From: Monosiga brevicollis MX1
Taxonomy: Eukaryota; Opisthokonta; Choanoflagellata; Craspedida; Salpingoecidae
Direction: 5' to 3'
Length of the DNA: 28,862 nucleotides
Assembly (NCBI RefSeq): GCF_000002865.3
Contig: NW_001865064.1
Span: 535,604-564,465 of the forward strand
Shown here one piece after another: positions 5,148 through 24,458 of this stretch. A program made the position numbers and the translations under genes. Below the pieces are notes generated by a model, which saw only the letters and a program-made list of their open reading frames with translations, ran no database searches and was not told where the DNA came from. The first letter of the stretch is position 1, and every line of letters starts with the position of its first letter.

Positions 5148-7534
5148 CTACGGCCAGAGCAAACGAGATACAATGGCCGTGCTGAGAGATGACGCACCAT
5201 TGGTCAGTGGGGCGGGGCTTGCACGAATGGTTTGATTGAGGACAACACCCGCGGCGTTGGGGGCTGATCGTGTGTTGACGGTGGCGCCAGCACGATTGCC
5301 TCCTACGGCTCCAGTGGCTTCAAGGGACATGCGCTGCAGCACCTGCACGCATTGGCTATAGCCTGTCCCAAGCGCGACCCCAAGCAAACAAGCAAATGAT
5401 TGGTCATGAGATGCATGGTCAAGAGAAGGAACTTGCTCGCAGGAAAATGGATATTCAGACATCAAGGCCTGCCTACCTCGCGCAGTGGCGTAATGTAGCG
5501 GCGTCATGCCATTGGAGTCACGAAACGAGGGCTTGGCGCCACGTTGCGCAAGGGCTTTGCAAATGTCCGGACGATTGCACACGGCAGCCCTATCCAAAGA
5601 GCATCGGATGAGACACGCGGCGAGTGCCTACAGATCGCGGGGTTGAGAACAAGGGGACTGACCAGTGAAGCGGAGTGGTCATGCGTGAATCAGTGCAGTT
5701 GACGTCGAGTTGCGGTCGGCTCAACAACGTCACAACAATGTCAAGCGGGCTGGTTGCGGAGATGGCCAGGTGCAGAGGCGCTCGCCCACGGTCGTCGCGC
5801 GCATTGACATGGCTATCGTCATTCTCCAACAACATCTGCGCCAGCCACGGCTGAGCATGAGGCAAGCCGAACCGAAACTCTTCTATCACAACACAATAAT
5901 GCGAGTTTATGGATGGCTACGTGCTAGGTTGGACATACCCGAAGACATCGCGGAGTGTCGCTGGATACGGCATAGTGAAACGCCGTGCGCCCCTCGGCAT
6001 CGGCAACCGTCGAGTCAGCTCCAGCACGCAGCAATCGTGCCAGGTGCTCAACATGACGGCACATAATGCTCCAGTGCAGAGGCGTCACCAGTTCCGTATC
6101 GCGGTGGTTGATTAGCTCCAGCGGCGCCACCTGTTCAAGAGGGAGTGGGTCGCGAGCGTGAACAAGAGCAAGCAGGACCCAAGCACCACACGTGAAAAGA
6201 TGCATAGAAACAAAACGAGAACAACAAAAAAAAAGGGGGGGGGGATTGAAAACAAAAAGTCACAAAACCAGGTCAGAAAGCCGGAAAGTTTGACGCACAC
6301 GCAGTAGAATATCGAGGCTGCGCGTAGAGGGATGCTTGCAGGCCCAGTGAATGGCCGAACGACCTTCAGGGTCCATAAAGCCGAGCAATTCCCGGTTGGC
6401 GCGCAATAATGCTCGGATCACTTCGGCATGGCCATAGTAGGCCGCCCAGAGAAGCGCTGTGCGCCCGTTGTTGTCGCGCGCCGATGCATCTGCATTGCTC
6501 TTTAAGAGCAGTTCGACGGAGCGCACGCGGTTGGCAATGGCGGCATACATGAGCGGCGTGCGTCCAAGCGCATCACAGCTGTTGACGTCGAGTGTTTGCA
6601 GCAAGGCCTTGATAGCCACACGGTCTCCCTGGCCGGCCGCCGAGTGCAGCATTGTGGCACCGTGCTGCTGCCATTCCTCGTACTGCTGCTGAGCGTCTGC
6701 CGAAGCGGGTTCTTCTTCGGCCGTGGTACCATTCATGGTGAAGGAGCGATCCAGCGCATCGCTGCTGCGTGCTTCACCAAGACGGCCACCGAGCAGTTCC
6801 CGTCGTGCACCACTGGCCCCGGTGGAAGCAGATCGCGCACGCCGCGACACGCGACTGGCGCCTGTGCCGGGCGAAAGCAAGTCGCCACCTGAATTCTGAC
6901 CCGTGCCTGAAGCGCGGGCCTCAGTTTGACTCGGACGCCCGGCTCCACGGATGTGAGTCGCGGCCCGCAGTGTAGACCCAAGACGGGCCAGGCGTGCTCG
7001 AAGCCCCGTGCCCTGGCTGACGCCAAGGTTACTACCGGCACTCTCCAAACCACTGCCCGTATCGCTCTCATCATGACCATTGGTATCCTGAGTGCGGTGT
7101 GGCACGGCCGAGTCTGACTCGGAGAGGGTAGAGCTGCTGCGGGGAGCGGGGCTAGCTGTGCCGGCAACCTGCGAGGCTGAGACGGCATGACGCACGCGGC
7201 GCTGGGTGCTATACTGCGTGAAGCGGTAAAACACATGTGGCGAGGAAACAAAAGGCTCGTCACTCTTTTGTGGGTCCAGCGGCTCAAATAACCCAAGGTC
7301 GAGTAGTTGCTGGCCCGTCTGTTGGGCGGCCGTCACGTCGTTCACCCCTTCCATGTTTTGCATGACCCACTGGGTGATGGCTTGGCCAGGAAAGACGTTG
7401 CGGTGCAGCTTGAGTTGAAACTGGCAATCCTGCGTTGGCACGCCAGTTGTGGGGTGGCGCAGAGCACGAATGTACATGTTGAGCAGCTGCTGTTGACGTT
7501 GCTGCTCCTGTCGCTGCTGCTGCGTCTCCTCCAC
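5148..7534 (-). CDS. DEP domain plus ankyrin-repeat protein, inversin-like repeats
   Basis: Five exons on the minus strand: 7534-6299, 6130-5939, 5850-5663, 5589-5477 and 5362-5148, about 647 codons. Residues 18-106 form a DEP domain (RALRHPTTGVP, then HRNVFPGQAITQWV, ending HVFYRFT), a fold that often tethers signalling proteins to membranes or GPCRs. A Ser/Gly/Arg-rich linker follows. From about residue 291 there are some nine ankyrin repeats (GRTPLMYAA, GRTALLWAAYYGH, TPLHWAAVCNRPD, MTPLHYATARG), ending in a short disordered tail. The repeat wording resembles inversin/ANKRD55-type ankyrins; that is a resemblance, not an assignment. Exon phases all agree, and the TPLHW|AAVC join selects the acceptor at 5590. 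The first exon has no ATG at its start: it opens directly after an acceptor-like ACTTAG, with the first in-frame Met at residue 20, beside the start of the DEP domain. It may therefore be a separate gene starting at Met20 (7477) or a downstream part of the kinesin gene. Confidence 0.85.
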
Positions 7535-7623: not shown

Positions 7624-10600
7624 TCAGAATGCCACTACCATGCTACCAACCTCTGAGGTTTCTGTCTCGGTTTCCTCCTGATCCTGGGCTCCGTCACTTT
7701 CATTGTTATCATGGCGATTCTTGCAAACTTTTGAACGTGTTTTGGAATCAACGTCTTGGACGGTGACCTTGGTCCGACCCGGCGAAGGGGTGGGCGTTTG
7801 AAGAGTGTCCATGGGGCTGAGCTCAGCGCGTTCTGATTCCGACTCGGACGAAGAGAGCTCAGCGGAAGCGCGGCCCGTTGTCTTGAGGGGCCGGCCGGAA
7901 TGAGTACGTACAAAGCCACGGCCAGACTGCTGGGGAAGGAGATAGCTCGCTCGCGATCCAGCGGCTTCGCGAGTGGGTGTGGCCCGGTCATCAGCGTCGA
8001 CATCAGTCACCTCAGCTGTCGGAGGAAGTGTTGAGCGCAAAGGAGATTGGGGTGGAGGCAAGAACCGTGGTGGGCCTGCCCCTGGATGAACAGAGTAGCA
8101 ACGTTGATGAGCCATGGGCAGACACAGGCGGGCAAAAGATGACATGGGTCCAGGCATTCAGAGAGGCGAGAAGGAAAAGGCAACCGAAGGTAAAGGGCAA
8201 TGCGGCGTACGTTTAGGACCGCTGCTGGCACTGCTGCCGCGAGAGGTGGCATCCGAGGCCATGGAAGAGTGCGTTGAGTCTAAACAAAAGTAAACAAAGA
8301 AATGAGAAGAGGCCACCAAGGCGGGGGGGGTGGTTGCGTTGAATAGTTCTGTAACACACCCGTGCTGAGAGTCATGTGGCGCATGTCCTCATCCATACTG
8401 GAGGCGGTGGGTTCGGACGACAGCAAAGGAGCCGCGGCCAGCTCTGGGTTGGTAAGTGATAGTTCTGTGGCTTGGCGCACAAAGTCAGCGCGTTGGCGTT
8501 GGAATTCAAGCCGCTCCATTCGGAGTTGCTCACGCTCCGCTTCGAGCAGGGCCAGTTTGGCGTCGTACTCGTTGGCCAACTTGGCCTCCATGGCCTTGAC
8601 GGCAGCATGAAACTCGGGGGACTCTTCAATCTCAGCACCACCTAGAATCAAACGAGGGCGTTGAAATGGGTACGCGATCAGCAGGACAAAGTGCATGTTG
8701 CAGACTTGTTCCCACAAGGCTGTTGAGAACCAAATCGAGAAGGAAGCACAAGGACAAACCAGTGAGGAGCTGGCGTTCCATGGAGTGTATCTTGGCCCGA
8801 AGGCGCTTGGATTCCTCTTGGGCTGTGGCAACTGCTGCGGTGCGGGCTTCAAGCTCGTTGGCCATGGCTTCTTTCTCGGTGGTGAGGCGTAGCTTTTGTT
8901 CCTTAAGCTGGGTCACGGCCACACCGCCTAGGCATGGGGAAGGACCGATGAGTGAGTGATAATCATATTCTTCCGTAGAACCTGGAGGGCAAAGGGCAGA
9001 GGGTGTGCGGCGTACGAGAGGAATCGGCCAGGGCTTTGCGAAGCCGCTTAATTTCACTTTCGTAAGCCGAAAGGAGGGCGCTGTTGTTGAGGTCTTGATT
9101 CACATATGCATAGTTCTTGACCTGCTTGGCGCGCTTGGCAAACTTGAGACTGTAGGCGCGGGCGGGACATGAAACGGTGAGGGCACTGTTGCAAGGAACG
9201 CACAGGTGTGTCCTCGGGACCGTACCTGTTGAGGGTTTCCGGGTAGCTGTTGGCCACGGCGGTGACGGCGGTGATCAGGGTTGTTTTGCAGTTGCCGCCC
9301 AGGCTCCCCTGCAGAAGGCGCGTGAGCTTGGAGTCACGGTAGGGGATGTGGTGGTTGCCTGGCGAAGTCAGAGCCAAGATAACCTAAACCAACGGAGAGA
9401 ATAAAAAAAAGCGGGGGGGGGGGGGCGGGGGGGTGGTTGTTGTGCGCGTGAGGCTGAGGCAATGAGGTGAACGATTTTGAAACTGAGTAGATGGGTGCTT
9501 GAGGGGCTGAGCTGACCTTGCCAAAGGCGGTGAGTGAGGTGTTGATGTTTTTCATCTCATCAAGCTGCTTGCCGCCTTGGATGCCGGTTTTAGAAATGCG
9601 TTCTGAACCAGCCAGGTCAACAAGGTTCAATTTGCCGATGGTGACGCTCTTGCCCTCGTCTAGAATGTGTTTGACCCATACGAATGCATCATCGTATGTA
9701 TGTGAGAGGCATCGCACCTGATGATGATCGCGCCGGTGGGTGGGCAGGCAGCAGGCGGGCAGGCAGCAGGTGGGCAAGCGGAGCGAGAGAGATAAAAAAA
9801 AAAAAAAAAAAACTCACCGTCTTCAGTACCAGCCTGTGATTTCTCGACAATGACGGTGAAGAGTGCATGGGAACGGCTGGACTGCTGGTTCATTTGGGTG
9901 GCACTGGTGGACCGCATCTTGGTGCCGAGTTGTAAAAGGTCGCAAATTTCGGACGGAGACTTGACAATGTGTTCAGACAGGCCAGAGACGTAGACGTCGG
10001 TGTTGGGGTCGGAGCGGATGCGCAACTGTTTGGCGTCAGTGTTGTGTAAAGCGTCGGGATTGAGAAGATCGCTAATTTTTTCGTTGTAAATCTGAAGGAA
10101 GGAGACGCGGACCAGGTAGGTCACGTTTGGTGTCTGGTCGCCTTCAATATGCTGGAAAATCTCACTGGCAGCGCGAGGGATGATGCCTCGGTCCTCGGCC
10201 TCCTGTGATGGCGGGATTTGGCCGTGCGGTTAGGGTTGGGGTTGAAGGGTGGGGTTAAAGCTGAAGAATGGGCAACAGTCGGGGGGGGGGCGGGGACGAA
10301 AGATAGGCTGCACGGTGCAAAACTTGCTTCGGTGCCTTGAATGGTGTGGGTTTTTCCGGTGCCCGTTTGTCCGTAGGCAATGATGGAGCCGTTGTAGCCT
10401 GCCAAAAGTGAAGAGTTGTTGTGCGTCAAGACAAGGGAGGGTGGGGCATTGACGTTGGCAAGGGAAATGGGCGCGGGCGCAGGAGCAGCACGCTGGTGCT
10501 GGGCGGTTAAGAGCAAGCGGGGTCGACCTTCAAGACTGGAAAGGACAACGGGGCGCACGGCCGAGTCGTAGACATCCGACTGGCTGGCATTGGGCTCGTA

Positions 10601-11350
10601 GATGCGATCAAAGACAAATTGGTGCTCTTTTTCGCGCCCAAAGGCCGCGGGTCGGTCAATCTTGCACATCTGGTGTCGTGAGAAAAGGGAGCCGCCGGTC
10701 AGAAGCCGAATTTAAGGAGAATGTGTTTGGCAGGGCGGAGGGGTGGGGAAGATGCAGACCTGAAGGTCATGGACTTTGAGACAGGGTTTTTGCAGCTGTT
10801 CGCGCATGATCATGGGCCGGACACGAACAACAACCTGGCAAGCGGATCAGAGGGACGGACGAGGGGTTGATGGAAGCCAGCGTGAGCCCACGGGGATGGA
10901 AGTTGCGATAAAGGGGGATGAGGATTGAAGAAAGGAGACCTTGAAGTTTTTCGTCTTGTTACTCTCGTCATTGTCAACGGCATCAAAGAGGGATTCGGCC
11001 AGGTTGGTGCCGCGGGCTATGTGATGAGCAGAGACGTGAGCGGGTAGACGGGGGCGAGGGTTGCGGGCCGCTGGGTTGATTGGGCCTGGGCGTACTTTGA
11101 AGGTGTGGGGCAGCAAAGGCGGTCGGGGTGAGGGGTCCCGGAGTATCAGGTTCGGGTGCTGGTTCGGCGTAGTTGTTCAAAGCTGCAGAGCAGAAACAAG
11201 GGCAGGCACATTTGTTGAGCTGCTTGGGGGCGCTTTGAAGAGTCTGAGGGGGGGTTATTTCAAGGTGGTGACGGAGGTGCGGGGCAGACCTATGGGTTCC
11301 GAGGCCACGCCATCAGCTGCGGGAGCCGCAGGTGGCTCCTCTTGGGCCAT
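7624..11350 (-). CDS. N-terminal-motor kinesin with coiled coil
   Basis: Fourteen exons on the minus strand: 11350-11290, 11182-11096, 11016-10940, 10834-10760, 10669-10528, 10398-10328, 10202-9818, 9659-9517, 9383-9226, 9149-9016, 8927-8760, 8641-8360, 8279-8211 and 8081-7624, about 769 residues if it ends at the TGA at 7624. It is an ATP-driven microtubule motor. After a Pro-rich, acidic N-terminus the motor begins near residue 74 (VVVRVRP). It shows the P-loop GQTGTGKT (157-164), switch I NQQSSRSH (276-283), switch II DLAGSE (314-319), the [14 protein letters not shown] helix, and a neck at [13 protein letters not shown] (400-412). Coiled coil covers roughly 430-590 and a Ser/Pro-rich acidic tail follows. 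The intron after exon 6 needs a GC-AG splice. No PH, FHA or other cargo domain is visible, and I cannot assign a kinesin family. The last exon may instead splice into the DEP-ankyrin exon. Confidence 0.9.
9413..9433 (-). repeat. Homopolymer G tract (C on the sense strand) in kinesin intron 8
   Basis: A G run with one C, inside the 133-base intron between kinesin exons 8 and 9. On the transcript strand it is poly-C and could act as part of the pyrimidine tract. It is likely to be length-variable and prone to sequencing error. Confidence 0.85.
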
Positions 11351-13133: not shown

Positions 13134-13811
13134 TTAGGTCGAGGCAAAGAATAACCAGAGGGCCAGGGCGGTTTCGGAGAAAAAGGGAATGGCGTAGAAT
13201 GGCTCCACCAGGCCGCGGGCGTCGGGGGCCACGAGACGACAGATGCTGCCGAGAAGATAGACGAGGCCCGAGGCCGCCAAGCCCCAGGCAATGGGACGCG
13301 GGGCCCGCAGCAGCGAGGGGGTGGCAGCCACCGATTGCTTGGGGTGCAGGAGGAGGCCCATGATCAGACAATTGATGCCAAAGGGAATGAGACCAACGTC
13401 GTAGCCCGTGGCATGGAGCTCGGTCAGAAGGAGAGCCAGGTCGTCCTGCCCGCGTTGGGCCGCCAGCGGCGTGCCGGAGAGCAAGACCAAGCTGGCGCCA
13501 ATCAGAGCCGCCTGCACCAACCGCAGAACCAGGGCCAAATGCGCCAAGACTGGGTGGGCCAAGCGCAGCAGGGTGTAAAACAAGACGCCAACCACAATGT
13601 CGCAGAGGACCATCATGGCATCGGCCAGCAGGCTGGCCCGAAAGCTCGCCTCATGCTCGCGCACCGCCGCTGCTGTGGCAGCTGCCTCCCCCGGGACCAG
13701 CAAATTGCCCCGCACCACGCCTTCGGCCCAGATCCCGCACACAATAATGAGAATGTAGGCCCCACCCAGCACTCGTCGAACCGTCCCAGACGACTCCTTT
13801 TCCCCGCTCAT
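13134..13811 (-). CDS. DUF4386-type multi-spanning membrane protein, intronless
   Basis: A single open frame of 225 residues from an ATG at 13811 to a TAA at 13134; the frame extends upstream only through non-ATG codons. It shows about six hydrophobic segments: GGAYILIIVCGIWAEGV near the N-terminus, a pair around 65-110, another around 150-165, and two near the C-terminus. The pattern of a Gly-rich first helix, then a VRGNLLVPGEAAATAAAVREHEASFRA-type region, then a run of short helices, resembles the bacterial DUF4386 family, whose function is unknown. It is unusual here in having no intron while its neighbours have many, and it is very GC- and Ala/Leu-rich. Acquisition from bacteria is plausible. 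The family call comes from memory of the pattern. Confidence 0.75.
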   Translation of the reverse strand: MSGEKESSGTVRRVLGGAYILIIVCGIWAEGVVRGNLLVPGEAAATAAAVREHEASFRASLLADAMMVLCDIVVGVLFYTLLRLAHPVLAHLALVLRLVQAALIGASLVLLSGTPLAAQRGQDDLALLLTELHATGYDVGLIPFGINCLIMGLLLHPKQSVAATPSLLRAPRPIAWGLAASGLVYLLGSICRLVAPDARGLVEPFYAIPFFSETALALWLFFAST

Positions 13812-14069
13812 CCTGGTCCGTCCACGCGCAGACGCCAACCCACACCACGCCGCGCAACAAGCAAGAACCGGCAAAGCTGGCTTGAAGAAAAATAAAAACC
13901 CTCAGAAGGGGGGAAGGGGCAGAGCAGTCCCAGTGATCGTGCGGCAGAGAAGAAAGAGGAGAAGATAAGCGTGTGTGTGTCTGTCTGTATGTCTGTATGT
14001 GTGTATGTGTGGTTCGAGGTGATGAAGAAAAAAAATGCAGAGAGGGGGCAGTAAAGGGGCAGGTACAGG

Positions 14070-15991: not shown

Positions 15992-16843
<852 letters not shown>

Positions 16844-17459: not shown

Positions 17460-20400
17460 ATGACCATGAGTGAAGATGGAAAGCAGCTGTACAATGCGTG
17501 TTTTCAACAAAGTTCAGAAAAGGCCCTGAAGCTGTTGAGCAGTTGGGACGCGCCACGTATTCAAGCCACAAATACTTACAAAGGCGGTGTACGTTTGCTG
17601 CTTGGTCGTGACGTTACACTCGCGTTCACATGTTCACATGGTATTCGACCTCTGGTGCGAAATGGTTAATGATGATGCTGCACCTGTCTACATGGTGGTA
17701 CCACAACCGGTAGATCGGCACATCTTTCTACGCTGCCTGTTTCAACGGTCATGTGCAGGTGGCGGAGATGCTATTGAGGCATGGCGCTGATGCCAACGCC
17801 AAGCACCTCGTCAGTACCTGCTCCATTCCCCTTTGGTGTGCATTTGCTGCTGACACATGGTATTTGGCATACGGGCCGCTCATGGTGCTATCATGGTGTT
17901 GCTACACCTGTTTACAATGGTGGTGGATCAACCTACAGGGGGACACTGCATTGCACTGGGCCTGTAGACTTTGTCATGTGGAGGTGGTGAAGATGCTATT
18001 GAAGCATGGCGCCGATGCATACGTTGCAAATGCCGTCAGTACCTCGCACTTTAATGATATTCCGTCTGTGCTTGGTTGCGCCGCGCGTGCTCCTCTCCTT
18101 CTCTCCTTTTTTTTTGCTTTGCGTCCACCCGTTTGACTTCACCGTACAACTCGCTTGTCGCTCGCCCATGTACCCGCCTCTTGCTCTTTGCTCTTGGTCA
18201 TTCATCTTTCTTCCTGTTATGGCTGTGTGCTCAGGAAGGTAAAACGCCCCTTGATCTGGTTCACCTAAGCGATCATGACACCAAGCTGGAGGATGTGTTT
18301 GTTGCGCACGAGATTCGTCTCGCACAACTTCCTGCCTGGCTGCCACCTCTACCCGGCGATACACCTACTATGCAGGTGGGTCCTCTCCTCATATGTCTTC
18401 AACTGCGATTCTTGCTTGTTTCCGTATCTGACGTATTCATGACCACTGACACCACACTACCCATAGACGACAGCCCATGTTGTGGGGGTGGTGCACGTTT
18501 GGCTCAAGCCACTCCTGCCCGGGCCCACCACCACCCATCCCTTCCCGTACCTCGATGCCCTGATCAGTGGTACCATCAAGCGCGACCCCAAGCTCGCAAC
18601 GGCGGTTGATGACATTCGAAAAATCATCAATGAAGCACCGGCAGAGGCATCTGTGATGGACTGTGCCACCCTTCAGGTCATCATCACTCAGGCCGTCGAC
18701 TCGCTTGATCAGGCACTACGGGCGCCCGAAGCGTTGAAAAATCGTTTGAGGCACTTGGATCCAAAGACCGACGCCGTGGAATCAGTGCTCCAAGATCTGC
18801 ATGACCTTGCAAACCAGTTTGAGCTGCAGCCAGTCCTTCACGAGCTCCAGACCGTGCTGGCAACATTTCCCGATCCACCTACTGCGCCGGCATCTGCACC
18901 CAAGACGCCCCCCGCCGATATTGCAACGGCCCTGAACAAACTTGCTATGCCGCGCAACATCGGGCCTGAGCGCCAAAAGCTGCTTGATAGCACTGAAAGC
19001 AACCTCAAGCGCCTGACACTGGCGCTGATCGATTCCCTGGGTGCTGTTGCGAAAGCAGGGGCTGCCGAAATGATTCAGTGCGTGGTCACGCTGTGGCGAT
19101 GCACGCAATGCTCGGATGTAAGCGAACCGCCTCCAGCCAAGGCGCTGCCCGAGGCGTGGAAGCAGCTCTGTCGAGCTCACGAGATGCTGAGTGTGCCCGA
19201 ACACAATGGTCTGGAGCAGCTTGCAATCTGGGTAGGAACGCATGACTATTTCCACCTGAATTGGTACCTGGCATTTGTGCATCACGAGTTGCTGGCTTTG
19301 ATGCAGAGGCTGCAGGACATGGCTGACTGGCAGACCACGACGCTGTCCGTGCTGGCTTTGTGCAAAACTTGTATCAATGAAATCACGCGGGACAGCGCAA
19401 GCCGGATTGTATCTGCACACGAAGAAATGTCCAAGTTACAGCAACAAATCCAGGCGACCAAAGCATTCTTGACTTTTGCTCCAGATGAGCTGCGTGCTGG
19501 GCTTGAAGCTGGTGTGCAAGACAAGCAAGAACGTCTGACCACCTTGCGCCATCAGTTGGCTGCTCAGCCACACGTGGATCGTGTCGCAGAGCTGGCAAAG
19601 CTGTTGCATCAGCACTTCCCAGCCCTACTGGTATTGCTGCATCCCGAACAAAGCTCCTTGGGAGCACACCTTCGTGCAGTGCTTGGACCTGACCTGCCCG
19701 CCAGTCTCATCTTTGAGGTCATGACCGAAGTGAATCAGGCGTTGACGCTCTCCAGTCTGGGCCAGCTTGACCTATACTACAATCAGAACCACAAAGTGTA
19801 CAAAGCCCACGCCGCGCTGCCCAACTGTTCCGCGCAAGACTTGGCCGTGAAAGAGTATGCCTTTGCTCGGCAACAAAAGCATGATCAGTGCCGCACGTTT
19901 CTCCGTGAACTCCGCGCCATGCGTCAGCTGGAGCACCCAAACATCATCCCGGTCCTCGGCACGCTTGTGGACGTGCACAATGGCCACCCCAGCGCATACC
20001 TGGTGCAGCCGTGGTGTACGCAGGGAGATTTGCAGCAGTGGCTTAGCAGAGCGCGTCACCTGGCCACCTCGGCCGTGATTACGGGTTTGATGAATCAGTT
20101 GCGCGCAGCATTGGCTTTTATGCACAGCAAAGGCTTGGTGCATCGGGATGTCAAGCTGAGCAACGTCATGCTGGATGGTGAGGAGGATCGGCCGGTTGTC
20201 CGGCTTGGCGACTTTGACATGGCCAAGGCCGCCGCTGAAGCCACAATGCTACCATGTACAACCACTGCATCGTCGGGTACGGCCGGATATGTAGCTCCGG
20301 AGGTGCTTTTTGGTGACGGCTGTGTGGGTGCGCGCCCGGCGCAGGATGCCTTTTCCTTTGGCTGCGTTCTTTACAATACCTACATGTTTCCACAAACAGT

Positions 20401-21617
20401 GCCCGCTGCTCGTCTACCCACGGATCAGCTGGTTGACAAATGCAAATGGAATTTCCAAGCAGGAGGCACAGATTGCAGCTTTCCACACCTGGCGGCTGAG
20501 GTAAGCGCGACTTCGGAACTGACCAGTGGGGCATTGCTCTCTTAGTTTCATGATCAAACCTTATTTGGTGTTACTCGATGCAGATGTGTGATTCTGCGAG
20601 CTATCTGTATCGTGAAGCGCGGGCCTTGCTTGCCACTGATCCAAAGGGACGCCCCAGCCTATTTAGTGCCGGGCTGATTGCGCAGCAACCCGTCGCCCAC
20701 AAAGTTGGGCCAGCTATTGATGTTTTGCGCGATGCGCCTGAGCTTGTGCAGGAGGTGTGTTGTTCGAGAATGCAATTGCTTTTTTTTTTTGATCCGCAGG
20801 CTGATTTAAACCCGGGTGTGGCTAGGTGGCGGACCTGTTAGAACAGCTGAGTTGTGACGGGCGAGGACCGGACACGATTGCAGTGCGGCGGGTCAAGCGC
20901 GTCGAAAACCCAGTGTTGTGGGAGCGCTATAGTGCAAAGCGACGGGAGATGTTGCATCGCATCACGAGTCAGAGGCACTGCGATCAACTTCAAACGGCTA
21001 AAGTGGATGCGCTCCCAGGCCTTCCGGCCTTGCTTCGCAACACATCCTGTCAGGAGCGGCTGCTGCTCCACGGGATCGCCGCCGACAAATCGCTGCGTGA
21101 CAAGATTGTGCGCCTGGGCCTCGACTATCGCTTTGCGGGCAGCAGCAGAGGTCATCGCTTTGGGCACGGCACGTATTTGTCGGATCATCCTGGCAAGGTC
21201 TGACAGCACTGGCTTCTCCTTGCTATTTTCTTCATTCAAATGCTGCTGTGCTGACGTATTGTGTGTTGACTTGCATGTAGACCCATCAGTACGCCAAGGC
21301 TGGCCCCAACGGTGAACGCATGCTCATTGTGACGAGAGCACTGCTCGGCCAAGCCTATGTCGATGAAGCGCCTAACTCGAAGGCGCTGGCACCCCCGCTT
21401 CTGCCCAGTGCGCCGAACAACGAACGGTGGGTGCGCGGGACAGAGTCGGCCTTTGATGCGTGTTGGTCTTTGCATCTGACCTGCCGACTGCTGCGCCTGG
21501 CTTTTCTTCAGATACGATTCGGTTATTGCGACGCCGCATGGGCGATTTCAAGAGGTCATTATGTTTGAGAATGCCCAAATGTATCCCGAGTTGGTGGTGT
21601 ACTACACGGCCGATTAG
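17460..21617 (+). CDS. Ankyrin repeat - protein kinase-like - PARP catalytic fusion protein
   Basis: Nine exons: 17460-17588, 17714-17809, 17939-18034, 18235-18375, 18467-20500, 20584-20754, 20826-21197, 21281-21426 and 21512-21617, 1096 residues, all phases consistent. Residues 44-154 hold ankyrin repeats (AACFNGHVQVAEMLLRHGAD, GDTALHWACRLCHVEVVKML, EGKTPLDL). About 160-580 is a long helical region of unknown family. Residues about 590-880 form a kinase-like domain: Lys in LAVKEY (616), ELRAMRQLEHPNIIPVLG, HRDVKLSNV (713-721), DFD for DFG (736-738), GTAGYVAPEV, and a C-lobe Arg in PKGRPSL. No GxGxxG loop is obvious. Residues about 905-1096 form an ADP-ribosyltransferase domain: ENPVLWERYSAKRREM, LLLHGI (His971), GHGTYLS (Tyr1006) and FQEVIMF (Glu1076), ending near PELVVYY. 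The H-Y-E triad suggests poly- or oligo-ADP-ribosylation. A second ATG lies two codons after the first. The kinase part may be a weak kinase or a pseudokinase. Confidence 0.9.
17589..18034 (+). repeat. Tandem duplication of an ankyrin exon together with its introns
   Basis: Exons 2 and 3 of the ankyrin-kinase-PARP gene are each exactly 96 bases and both are followed by GTCAGTACCT. Their preceding introns (125 and 129 bases) share similar wording over their length: TTTGCTGCT near the start, ACATGGTATT in the middle and GCTxCACCTGTxTAC near the end. This is the mark of a segmental copy of exon plus intron. Confidence 0.75.
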
Positions 21618-21886: not shown

Positions 21887-24130
21887 TTAGATGTTGATGT
21901 ACAAAGGCTCCACGGGAAGTGCGCCCACTGGGGTATAGTCAAGCTGGCACACCTGTGGCTCAGCTCCTTCACGATTGATTGTGATCTCGATGCTCAAGCG
22001 AACGTCGGCATTCACCGTCTGAGTCAGACACATGATACTTGTATCATCTGCAGGCTCCATGTCAGCCTCAACCACCAGGTCTTGAGGGGCATCGTGCTCG
22101 TTGATTTTGCATTTGACCTGCGTGGATGGGGGGTCACACTTGATCACGATATTGAGTTGAGTCTTTTTGCTTCGCTCAACAAGCCTGTCAACGGTCCAGT
22201 CATCATCTGCTCTTGTAATAATCTTGGTGATGACTGTTTTGCACAAGGCGATCAGGCTGCTTGCTTTTTTGAACGTTAAAAGACATTCATTTGTCTCCTC
22301 TAGAAATCCAGACGCCTGTTTTTTGAAAAACAAGCGTTGGGTCGGATGCCCTAAAAAGTAGTCGTGAAGCTTCTCCAAGCGATTTCTTAGAACCTTAAAG
22401 GAGTTGTCCTATCGAAAGCAGTAACATCGTGTGAGTCCTGTAACACACTAAACACGCCATGCCATGCACCTTACCGCGTCAAAGAGCCAGGGGCAATCTT
22501 TCAGAATGGATGGATGCAATATGTTGGCGGCGAGAAAAGAGAGTTCAACCAAACTTTCCTTCACGCCGTGTGTGGTCGGCCATAGATCTGTGCCTGCCTG
22601 ACTGATGTTGCAGACGGTCTGCGCTACGTCACGAACAATGATCGCATCACGCAAGGCCAGTTGAAGCTTGCAGGAGCTTGGGCTGAGATAAAAAAGAGCA
22701 TTGCATTCAAAATCGACAGGAGGATCGCTGTTCTGTGGCCGGTCAACTCTTCGAAAGTTGACGGGGATTGCGTCGGTCGGGCGAAAGTAGGACTTGAAGC
22801 CAAGATCATACAAAAGGATGCTCGACACTCCATTGACGTGTGCGAACAAATGTTTCAAGTCGATGTTTGATGGTTTGGATGGCATTTGCCAACACAACCC
22901 AGCAACGTTGCTGCTCAGCCGTGCTTGATCTAGGGCGAGAAATGATGCGCCTGTGTTTGGGTTGTCCTCTTGAACTTTTGCACGTTGAATCGCATGAGCC
23001 ACCGATTTGTTTCGCTTGGTCTTGAGAGCTGCGAGCACGCTTGAAAGCGTTTCTTTCCATTGAGAAACACCAATTTGTTTTTCAAACAAGCTTGCCGTTG
23101 CCTCCAAGACGTCTTCAGTCAGGACTGGCCTTGAGAGCTGATTGTGCACTAATAGGCCACCTGCTACCGCGCTGAGCTTCTCGCACAGGATCGTTTGTGT
23201 GTCATATCGAGAGGGACCTTGGCACCATTCTGCATATGATTCAGCCAGCTTCGCGTGTATGTTCCATACGAGCACAGTGTCCAGAACGCTCGCATGGCAA
23301 TTGGTCCAAAGCTTCTTGTTCTTTTGATTCGTAATGCCCTTAATGATATTTCTGACCGCGTCTTCGCGCCCATTAGCATCAACGTGACCCAAGGCAGCTT
23401 TCAAGACAGAAGACAGATTCGTGGGGGCATTGTTGGCAACAACTTTTTCGCTGGGAATTCGGATGGCACCCACACGACGTCCAAAAAAAGCCTCGACCTT
23501 GTGGCGCACTTCAGGATCGAGCGAATCCGAATCAATGGCAACTTCACCATTCAACTTGATGGAAATATTTTGGCCATTTGCTTGTCCGACGTTGATCAGA
23601 AAGTCTCGCACAAACTTTTGAAGCTTTTGATTATCATCGTCGCCATCTTGCTCGATGATGAGCTCGCGCAGACGCTGTTCATGTTCGTCTTTCAAACGTG
23701 CCTGGATCGACGTCAGGTGATCAGTCGACAGCTCTTTCGAAATCGCTTTAACGACCGTTGGACGCCAGGTCATGAGCGCATTATACGTAAAAAGGTCGCC
23801 GCTGTTGTTTTGCTTGATTTCAAAAAGAGCATGATCGGCCAAGAAGCCTGCTATCATGGCCCGCAACGTGGCAAGTTTCTGCCGGTCGGAAAGTTTTTTT
23901 CGCAGCCTTTCTCTGGCCGTAGCGTTCCGATTGTTTGGCATCATTGAACGTTGCTGCCTCCACTGGAGACAGAAAAATGAGCAGTACAGCAATGCTCCTT
24001 GCTTCAGGCCTTGCTTCACGGTCCCTTGCTCATTGCATTGAATTGTCCGTCTGAATCCGCCCATTTTACGAGCGAGTCTGAAAGTGTACACGCCAGCAAA
24101 CTTTACAGGTGTGTGGACATTCCATGTCAT
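21887..24130 (-). CDS. Uncharacterised two-exon protein (orphan)
   Basis: Two exons on the minus strand: 24130-22475 and 22408-21887, joined through a 66-base intron with donor GACGCG|GTAAGG and acceptor TTTCGATAG|GACAAC, phase 0. The full frame is about 725 residues. The true start may be the paired Met at 23944/23941 (about 662 residues), because a good acceptor (TTTTTCTGTCTCCAG) lies just upstream at about 23965 and the earlier part could be a spliced leader. The protein is mostly helical and soluble-looking, with an acidic EQDGDDDNQK stretch, no signal peptide or clear membrane segment, and a more beta-like C-terminal part. I recognise no domain. It converges on the ankyrin-kinase-PARP gene, 269 bases from its stop. 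Its GC content and third-position GC are lower than in the neighbouring genes. Confidence 0.75.
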
Positions 24131-24458
24131 GACTTTTCGACATTAACGCCACAGCAGGCCGCACACCTTTGTGGGTCATCGTGGTAGAATCCGCTTGTGA
24201 CCTGGTCCCGACCTTCACTCATGAGTCTGCGCGCTGCCGGCGAGTGAGTGCCCCAACCGTCCACCCCCATGCCCATGGGTTTGGTGCAAGAGAAAAAAGA
24301 CAACATCGACACTAGCGCTGCAGGAAGCGTGCTGATGCAGCCTGGACCTCATGTCTCCTTCTTCGACAGTCCTCACTGCGATCCTAACCAATGTAAAAAA
24401 AGCCAAGAACCCGCCCTTCCCCCTGCCGACTCGTCGATCTCGATCTCTAGGAAAAGAT

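Follow-up and report, generated by a model that had tools for sequence, protein, structure and literature searches.

A gene at positions 17460 to 21617 of the 28,862-nucleotide (nt) stretch of Monosiga brevicollis MX1 DNA analyzed here (contig NW_001865064.1, positions 535,604 to 564,465 of the forward strand; hereafter, the window) encodes a predicted protein in which ankyrin repeats precede a protein kinase domain and a PARP (ADP-ribosyltransferase) domain. On balance, we consider this gene probably a member of a diversified family of intracellular recognition proteins, whose effector would be the kinase together with the ADP-ribosyltransferase. The reading is built on an architecture that recurs across the genome, an expansion to at least 46 kinase loci (the window gene included), conserved catalytic residues in enzymes that are under purifying selection, and an excess of amino acid change at the binding face of the ankyrin repeats.

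Amino acid change at the ankyrin binding face

For the window gene and 22 paralogs, the DNA upstream was examined, and 20 of these 23 kinase loci contain at least one recognized ankyrin repeat. Each repeat is a phase 0 exon of its own; most have the same length (33 residues in 80 of 95) and the same splice donor (GTCAGT in 75 of 95). Repeat statistics were calculated on the 80 exons of 33 residues, of which 52 derive from ankyrin-kinase-PARP loci and 28 from five stretches around other copies of the N-terminal ankyrin cap exon (described below). The exon finder scored framework positions and may miss repeats whose framework has strongly diverged; synonymous sites and introns did not enter the score.

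Variation among these exons is concentrated at a handful of positions: entropy reaches 3.2 to 3.8 bits at repeat positions 3, 5, 10, 13, and 14 and 2.8 bits at position 2, with the next value at 2.15 (the rank order of the top six positions is 5, 13, 3, 10, 14, 2). The six most variable natural positions are exactly those randomized in an artificial ankyrin library (positions 2, 3, 5, 10, 13, and 14, according to the available portion of PMC3308923). The classical DARPin set, given as positions 2, 3, 5, 13, 14, and 33 in the accessible text of PMC8248824, also stands out (mean entropy, 2.99 bits versus 1.02 elsewhere; permutation p, 5e-5), with position 33 itself conserved. At the level of five-residue binding-face combinations, 79 are distinct among the 80 exons, the lone shared pair lying inside a single locus (L052).

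This variation amounts to an excess of amino acid change. For the six-position library set, the nonsynonymous rate (dN) inside the set is 4.40 times the synonymous rate (dS) elsewhere, dN/dS inside the set is 2.15, and none of 50,000 random six-position sets matched the observed ratio of nonsynonymous to synonymous differences per site (pN/pS). When positions were chosen in half of the genes and tested in the rest, the ratio of dN in the set to dS elsewhere had a median of 4.14 (range, 3.05 to 7.39; 40 splits), and the same ratio is 4.39 in the ankyrin-kinase-PARP loci alone and 4.22 in the other-cap stretches alone. Over all pairs, dN is 1.34 at five positions versus a framework dS of 0.27, and a bootstrap of pN at the five positions over framework pS gives 2.2 to 3.5.

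Ankyrin surface positions are variable in general, and these patterns might reflect neutral variation, with conversion homogenizing the repeats and their surface positions being merely unconstrained. The units do appear to move: near-identical introns can occur in repeat units on different contigs, implying that units have been exchanged or homogenized. In the 56 repeats with a complete following intron, exon and intron together form a unit of approximately 215 nt, and introns differ by 0.169 on average (0.159 within genes, 0.170 between genes). In 10 of 49 cases (0.20), the nearest intron neighbor belongs to the same gene, compared with a mean of 0.064 and a maximum of 0.224 under label shuffling: there is some within-gene clustering of units, yet most nearest neighbors are in another gene.

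Neutrality, however, predicts that dN, dS, and intron divergence should be roughly equal, which the rates at the five positions and inside the six-position set contradict. Among 319 pairs with introns less than 10% different (mean, 0.062), the divergence of hypervariable codons at their first, second, and third bases is 0.68, 0.56, and 0.37, versus 0.110, 0.084, and 0.045 for framework codons; in one such comparison, between units of L040 and L043 on different contigs, the introns have zero mismatches (gaps uncounted), yet all five hypervariable positions differ. Given these figures, a neutral origin is improbable. The hypervariable codons are compatible both with selection after exchange and with targeted mutation, two processes that are not separable here.

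The gene and its genomic family

The window gene consists of nine exons on the forward strand, with GT-AG boundaries at all eight introns, which splice in frame into a protein of 1,096 residues with a terminal TAG:

17460-17588 (+): exon 1, N-terminal ankyrin cap (MTMSEDGKQLYNACFQQ...), an exon with 87 matches in the genome
17714-17809 (+): exon 2, 32-residue ankyrin repeat, phase 0
17939-18034 (+): exon 3, 32-residue ankyrin repeat, phase 0
18235-18375 (+): exon 4, incomplete final ankyrin repeat, plus linker
18467-20500 (+): exon 5, middle region of about 410 residues without a Pfam match and most of the kinase (K616, E635, HRD at 713-715, DFD at 736-738, APE at 764-766)
20584-20754 (+): exon 6, C-terminal end of the kinase (D851-P852...R855-P856, subdomain XI), then the linker leading to PARP
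20826-21197 (+): exon 7, initial part of the PARP catalytic domain, with His971 and Tyr1006
21281-21426 (+): exon 8, PARP catalytic domain, exon end in phase 2
21512-21617 (+): exon 9, final part of PARP, with Glu1076 and the stop codon TAG

The nine phase-consistent exons agree with the first-pass annotation, which was made from the window's sequence alone, and the residues that it had singled out (Lys616, His713-Arg714-Asp715, the APE motif, His971, Tyr1006, and Glu1076) are all in place. The hidden Markov model search that it had proposed puts both enzyme domains above the Pfam cutoff: Pkinase (PF00069) at residues 609 to 800 (E, 3.6e-35) and PARP (PF00644) at residues 906 to 1092 (E, 2.7e-9; 37.3 bits versus a cutoff of 26.7). 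PK_Tyr_Ser-Thr also exceeds its cutoff, at residues 597 to 814, as do five ankyrin families with their best stretches inside residues 12 to 115 (E, 3.4e-14 to 2e-8). The Pfam domain, the K, E, HRD, and APE signatures, a DFG-type motif in the form of DFD, and the subdomain XI arginine place the first enzyme in the protein kinase superfamily; a catalytic domain above the cutoff and an H-Y-E type triad place the second in the PARP/ADP-ribosyltransferase superfamily. The best solved-structure matches of the kinase are mixed (TYK2, ULK1, ScRIPK, and PknB, among the 60 matches listed), and for this reason we assign it to no group, TKL included. A single-sequence structure model of the middle region is mostly helical at low confidence (mean predicted local distance difference test score, 46.8). 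No SAM, NACHT, or NB-ARC domain occurs among the Pfam matches at E ≤ 0.001 in the 1,096-residue protein. Because no signal peptide or membrane segment is apparent by eye (no predictor was run), we take the protein to be intracellular.

Genome searches (39.47 Mb, 57 contigs) scored only the best candidates, making the family counts lower bounds. Among the 46 loci found with the kinase query, 39, including that of the window, match at 68% identity or more across at least 264 of 265 residues; the others are partial or split (four) or more distant (three, at 43 to 46% identity). At 45 of the 46 loci, the next 1.2 kb downstream contain a PARP match in the same orientation (the exception is C9:58464), and this recurring kinase-PARP layout is more than a chance arrangement. 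The PARP rows, 53 in number, were collected by hand from among the matches listed. Eight of the PARP matches lie more than 1.2 kb from any kinase locus (C9:9573, C9:44726, C9:76293, C9:104123, C9:165115, C14:166865, C7:96516, and C55:2587257); for six of the eight, a kinase-PARP gene on the same strand has its PARP exon 1.3 to 1.9 kb to the 5′ side, and these six are possibly partial second copies. The middle region returned 52 genome rows; excluding that of the window itself, the rows that span most of the region are 36 to 62% identical.

The cap exon is distributed more broadly: 29 of its matches are followed by a kinase locus within 6 kb, and the other 58 are not. In the five stretches around other caps, ankyrin exons come after the cap, and neither kinase nor PARP was found there among the matches listed, although two of the stretches (L091 and L093) hold long runs of N. 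The 58 other cap matches indicate a larger set of genes in which ankyrin exons follow the same cap exon, with neither kinase nor PARP seen in the stretches read (for example, L092, L094, and L095); the stretch containing the 14 recognized ankyrin exons of L094 has two caps. A 29,192-residue open frame on contig C7 was dropped since locus L047, which lies there, contains N stretches. A viral source was also considered: a kinase scan of viral contigs gave four pattern matches, none of them a relative by tblastn.

Residues and layout were compared across 30 of the 46 loci (L039 to L068, L039 being the window gene). In the kinase, K616, E635, HRD, N720, DFD, APE, D781, R855, and P856 are invariant in all 30; in the PARP domain, Tyr1006 is likewise present in all 30, and His971 and Glu1076 are each present in 29. 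Kinase and PARP are under purifying selection: the kinase has a median dN/dS of 0.135 and PARP one of 0.169, next to 0.251 and 0.273 for the linker and the middle region, respectively (325 pairs of the 26 loci that align without a frameshift, among them L057, less one stop codon, and L047, less its N codons). The kinase is probably active.

The same alignments bear on whether the three domains belong to one gene. The first-pass annotation had named transcripts that stop near 20545, after exon 5, and start anew near 20578 as the sign of two genes; in that case, an ankyrin-kinase gene would end near 20545, and an adjoining PARP gene would begin from the ATG at 20584. Such an ATG opens exon 6 in 27 of the 28 loci whose printed codon is that of exon 6, the Pfam kinase matches end at residues 800 to 814, upstream of exon 6, and 50 of the 60 solved kinases listed align up to exon 5 only. 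Exon 6 nevertheless carries kinase subdomain XI (D851-P852-K-G-R855-P856), the arginine of which pairs with the glutamate of APE, and R855 and P856 are kept at every aligned locus. The other 10 listed kinases (seven CHK2 rows and three rows of the 8ho6 kind) align through exon 6, which begins at query position 266, as far as position 288 or 301. L058 has ATA where the start of a second gene is supposed, and the frame beyond the exon 5 donor meets a stop at unrelated distances, from 4 to 102 codons, in the 28 loci with exon 5 in one piece (L061 and L063, whose exon 5 was split by the aligner, are omitted). The exon layout is repeated across the 30 loci (27 share an exon 7 of 372 nt, and 23 an exon 8 of 146 nt); spliced alignment needed no frameshift in 26, and the aligner split L056, L061, and L063 into six exons each. 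With subdomain XI inside exon 6 and the exon layout conserved, two separate genes appear highly improbable, and comparison across the 30 loci supports one protein with ankyrin repeats, kinase, and PARP domain, as the first-pass annotation had proposed.

More kinase loci than expected lie close to contig ends: 17 of 41 are within 40 kb, whereas 9.3 would be expected on those contigs (P, 0.0014; the loci on C20, C36, and C50 and both loci on C37 are omitted). This enrichment would suit an arms-race or selfish family, in which subtelomeric-style duplication has multiplied locus-specific incompatibility or mating-type-like genes. The contig ends, however, may simply be assembly breaks in repeats, and a single TTAGGG run was found in the genome, which does not locate the telomeres; we regard a selfish origin as quite improbable.

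Upstream of the gene lies a long CAGA tetranucleotide array that is open in several frames (seen at 16500-16843; the open frames suggest a start before 16300). Other features of the window are as follows:

6263-7534 (-): open frame encoding both ankyrin repeats and a DEP domain
9663-10711 (-): kinesin motor domain across two open frames
13137-13901 (-): DUF4386 open frame (E, 8e-45)
22451-24142 (-): 564-residue open frame directly 3′ of the ankyrin-kinase-PARP gene, with no Pfam match at E ≤ 0.01 and a genome search that returned only itself

Proposed role of the family

In the reading that we favor, the N-terminal array of one-exon ankyrin repeats would bind a specific partner through its hypervariable concave face, and the middle region, helical in the structure model, might couple binding to a double effector, consisting of a conserved and probably active kinase and an ADP-ribosyltransferase with an H-Y-E triad. 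Changing repeats would read different ligands, and the same two enzymes would mark the ligand, or shared proteins downstream, with phosphate and ADP-ribose. The most likely role for such a family would be that of a diversified recognition repertoire, directed at non-self, at pathogens, or at allorecognition. The first-pass annotation had instead envisaged a signaling enzyme whose phosphorylation and ADP-ribosylation would act on the same ankyrin-recruited target, or in which one domain would control the other. The window alone could not reveal that the gene belongs to a large family whose ankyrin face is hypervariable, and the likely biology now shifts from one odd signaling enzyme toward a recognition repertoire.

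Several points weigh against this reading. Upstream coverage extends to 23 of the 46 kinase loci, among which three (L047, which is masked, L048, and L050) have no recognized ankyrin repeat, and the window gene's own two repeats, at 32 residues, fall outside the 80-exon set. The classical DARPin positions give lower ratios than the library positions (3.04 for dN there relative to dS elsewhere; 1.62 for dN/dS within the set), and Nei-Gojobori (NG86) ratios on exchanged, homogenized repeats are not equivalent to a formal site model. On the enzyme side, L065 has Tyr in place of His971 and L068 has Gln in place of Glu1076; the DFD motif and a Gly-rich loop that, by eye, seems atypical could mean low kinase activity; and some family copies may be broken, as four of the 30 aligned loci (L040, L050, L060, and L066) need a frameshift in the alignment and L057 holds an in-frame stop.

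Diversified binding could also serve endogenous targets instead of non-self. The genes would then be diversified regulatory enzymes, whose arrays direct phosphorylation and ADP-ribosylation to many endogenous proteins in an adaptor-like manner, and conserved enzymes with variable binders fit this account equally well. Against it stand the near-absence of shared combinations at the binding face (79 in 80 exons) and hypervariable codons that are far more divergent than introns, even where introns are near-identical; stable endogenous targets would predict less change, although this is an argument and not a test. We consider a purely endogenous role unlikely.

A more elaborate version of the recognition reading is tentative and, taken whole, rather doubtful. 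It pictures a home-grown repertoire of cytosolic receptors in a relative of animals, with about 45 enzyme-armed copies and possibly some 58 cap-sharing genes as a potential reserve of cassettes. Repeats would be shuffled as units of about 215 nt, six binding-face codons would be diversified by selection (perhaps with targeted mutation in addition), and the conserved kinase-ADP-ribosyltransferase would mark each recognized target twice.

As for precedent, the first-pass annotation had stated that no described family carries all three domains, and this holds insofar as we found no description of the triple architecture or its family in the literature searched, most subscription journals lying outside its scope. 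The accessible part of a 2014 PARP survey records an ankyrin and PARP combination in M. brevicollis, among others, and mentions no kinase there. In the available sections of work on choanoflagellates (PMC6040629 and PMC8592570), most animal cytosolic sensors, including the LRR-containing NLR family, went undetected, whereas NACHT-LRR proteins, cGAS, and STING were detected, and choanoflagellate pathogen recognition is called a mystery. RNA-seq of Monosiga exposed to bacteria gave 674 up-regulated genes (PMC8592570). For diversified intracellular recognition in choanoflagellates, the present family offers a concrete candidate that can be tested, one reached by a route without a NOD domain. If the reading is true, the family would couple two protein-marking enzymes in one receptor and would offer a natural counterpart to synthetic ankyrin libraries.

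Comparison with known systems

(i) Tankyrases have a PARP domain with an H-Y-E triad, and they share with the window protein a layout of N-terminal ankyrin repeats and C-terminal PARP domain (tankyrase layout from the accessible part of PMC4245714). The window protein differs in its lack of a SAM match, its additional kinase, its short arrays, and a PARP domain nearer to PARP12, PARP15, and PARP14; we reject tankyrase membership because there is no SAM match in Pfam and the PARP domain is closer to PARP12/15. A 2022 tankyrase paper, in the portion available, reports that tankyrases were not detected in M. brevicollis.

(ii) The closest solved PARP domains by sequence are those of the mono-ADP-ribosyltransferases PARP12, PARP15, and PARP14 (E, 4e-10 to 7e-7), and tankyrase-2 is a weak match (E, 0.007; phmmer against solved structures, with no tree). 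The third catalytic residue is Glu here and Ile in PARP12, to which Glu1076 aligns. Human PARP12, PARP14, and PARP15 are linked to antiviral immunity and, to our knowledge, lack an ankyrin-kinase part.

(iii) RIPK4 and ANKK1 join ankyrin repeats and a kinase in one chain, with the kinase first and the ankyrins last, whereas the ankyrins precede the kinase in the window protein; we know of no PARP domain in either.

(iv) DARPins resemble the family in combining a fixed framework with variation at positions 2, 3, 5, (10), 13, and 14 (from the available text of PMC8248824 and PMC3308923). For one three-repeat array, a designed ankyrin fusion is the top solved match, and DARPins make up many of the 60 matches listed, beside ankyrin-1. 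The arrays described here are natural and linked to enzymes, whereas DARPins are artificial, and position 33, which is randomized in DARPins, is conserved.

(v) Fungal NLRs with hypervariable WD, ANK, or TPR repeats (the NWD family of Podospora), as far as the available portion of PMC4986451 describes them, form a gene family with highly similar repeats in variable number, amino acid change focused where the repeats face the ligand, exchange among members, and repeats fused to effectors. The N-terminal domains listed there include PKinase, and at one locus five positions of the ANK repeats are positively selected, all but one on the concave face. The window protein, by comparison, has its repeats at the N terminus, each in a single exon, and a kinase plus ADP-ribosyltransferase as its putative effector; it has no NACHT or NB-ARC match in Pfam, and on that account we do not class it as an NLR. 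What it does have in common with diversified repeat receptors of the NLR type are near-alike repeats with excess amino acid change on the ligand face, and by this analogy, the family may be regarded as NLR-like in working principle rather than by membership.

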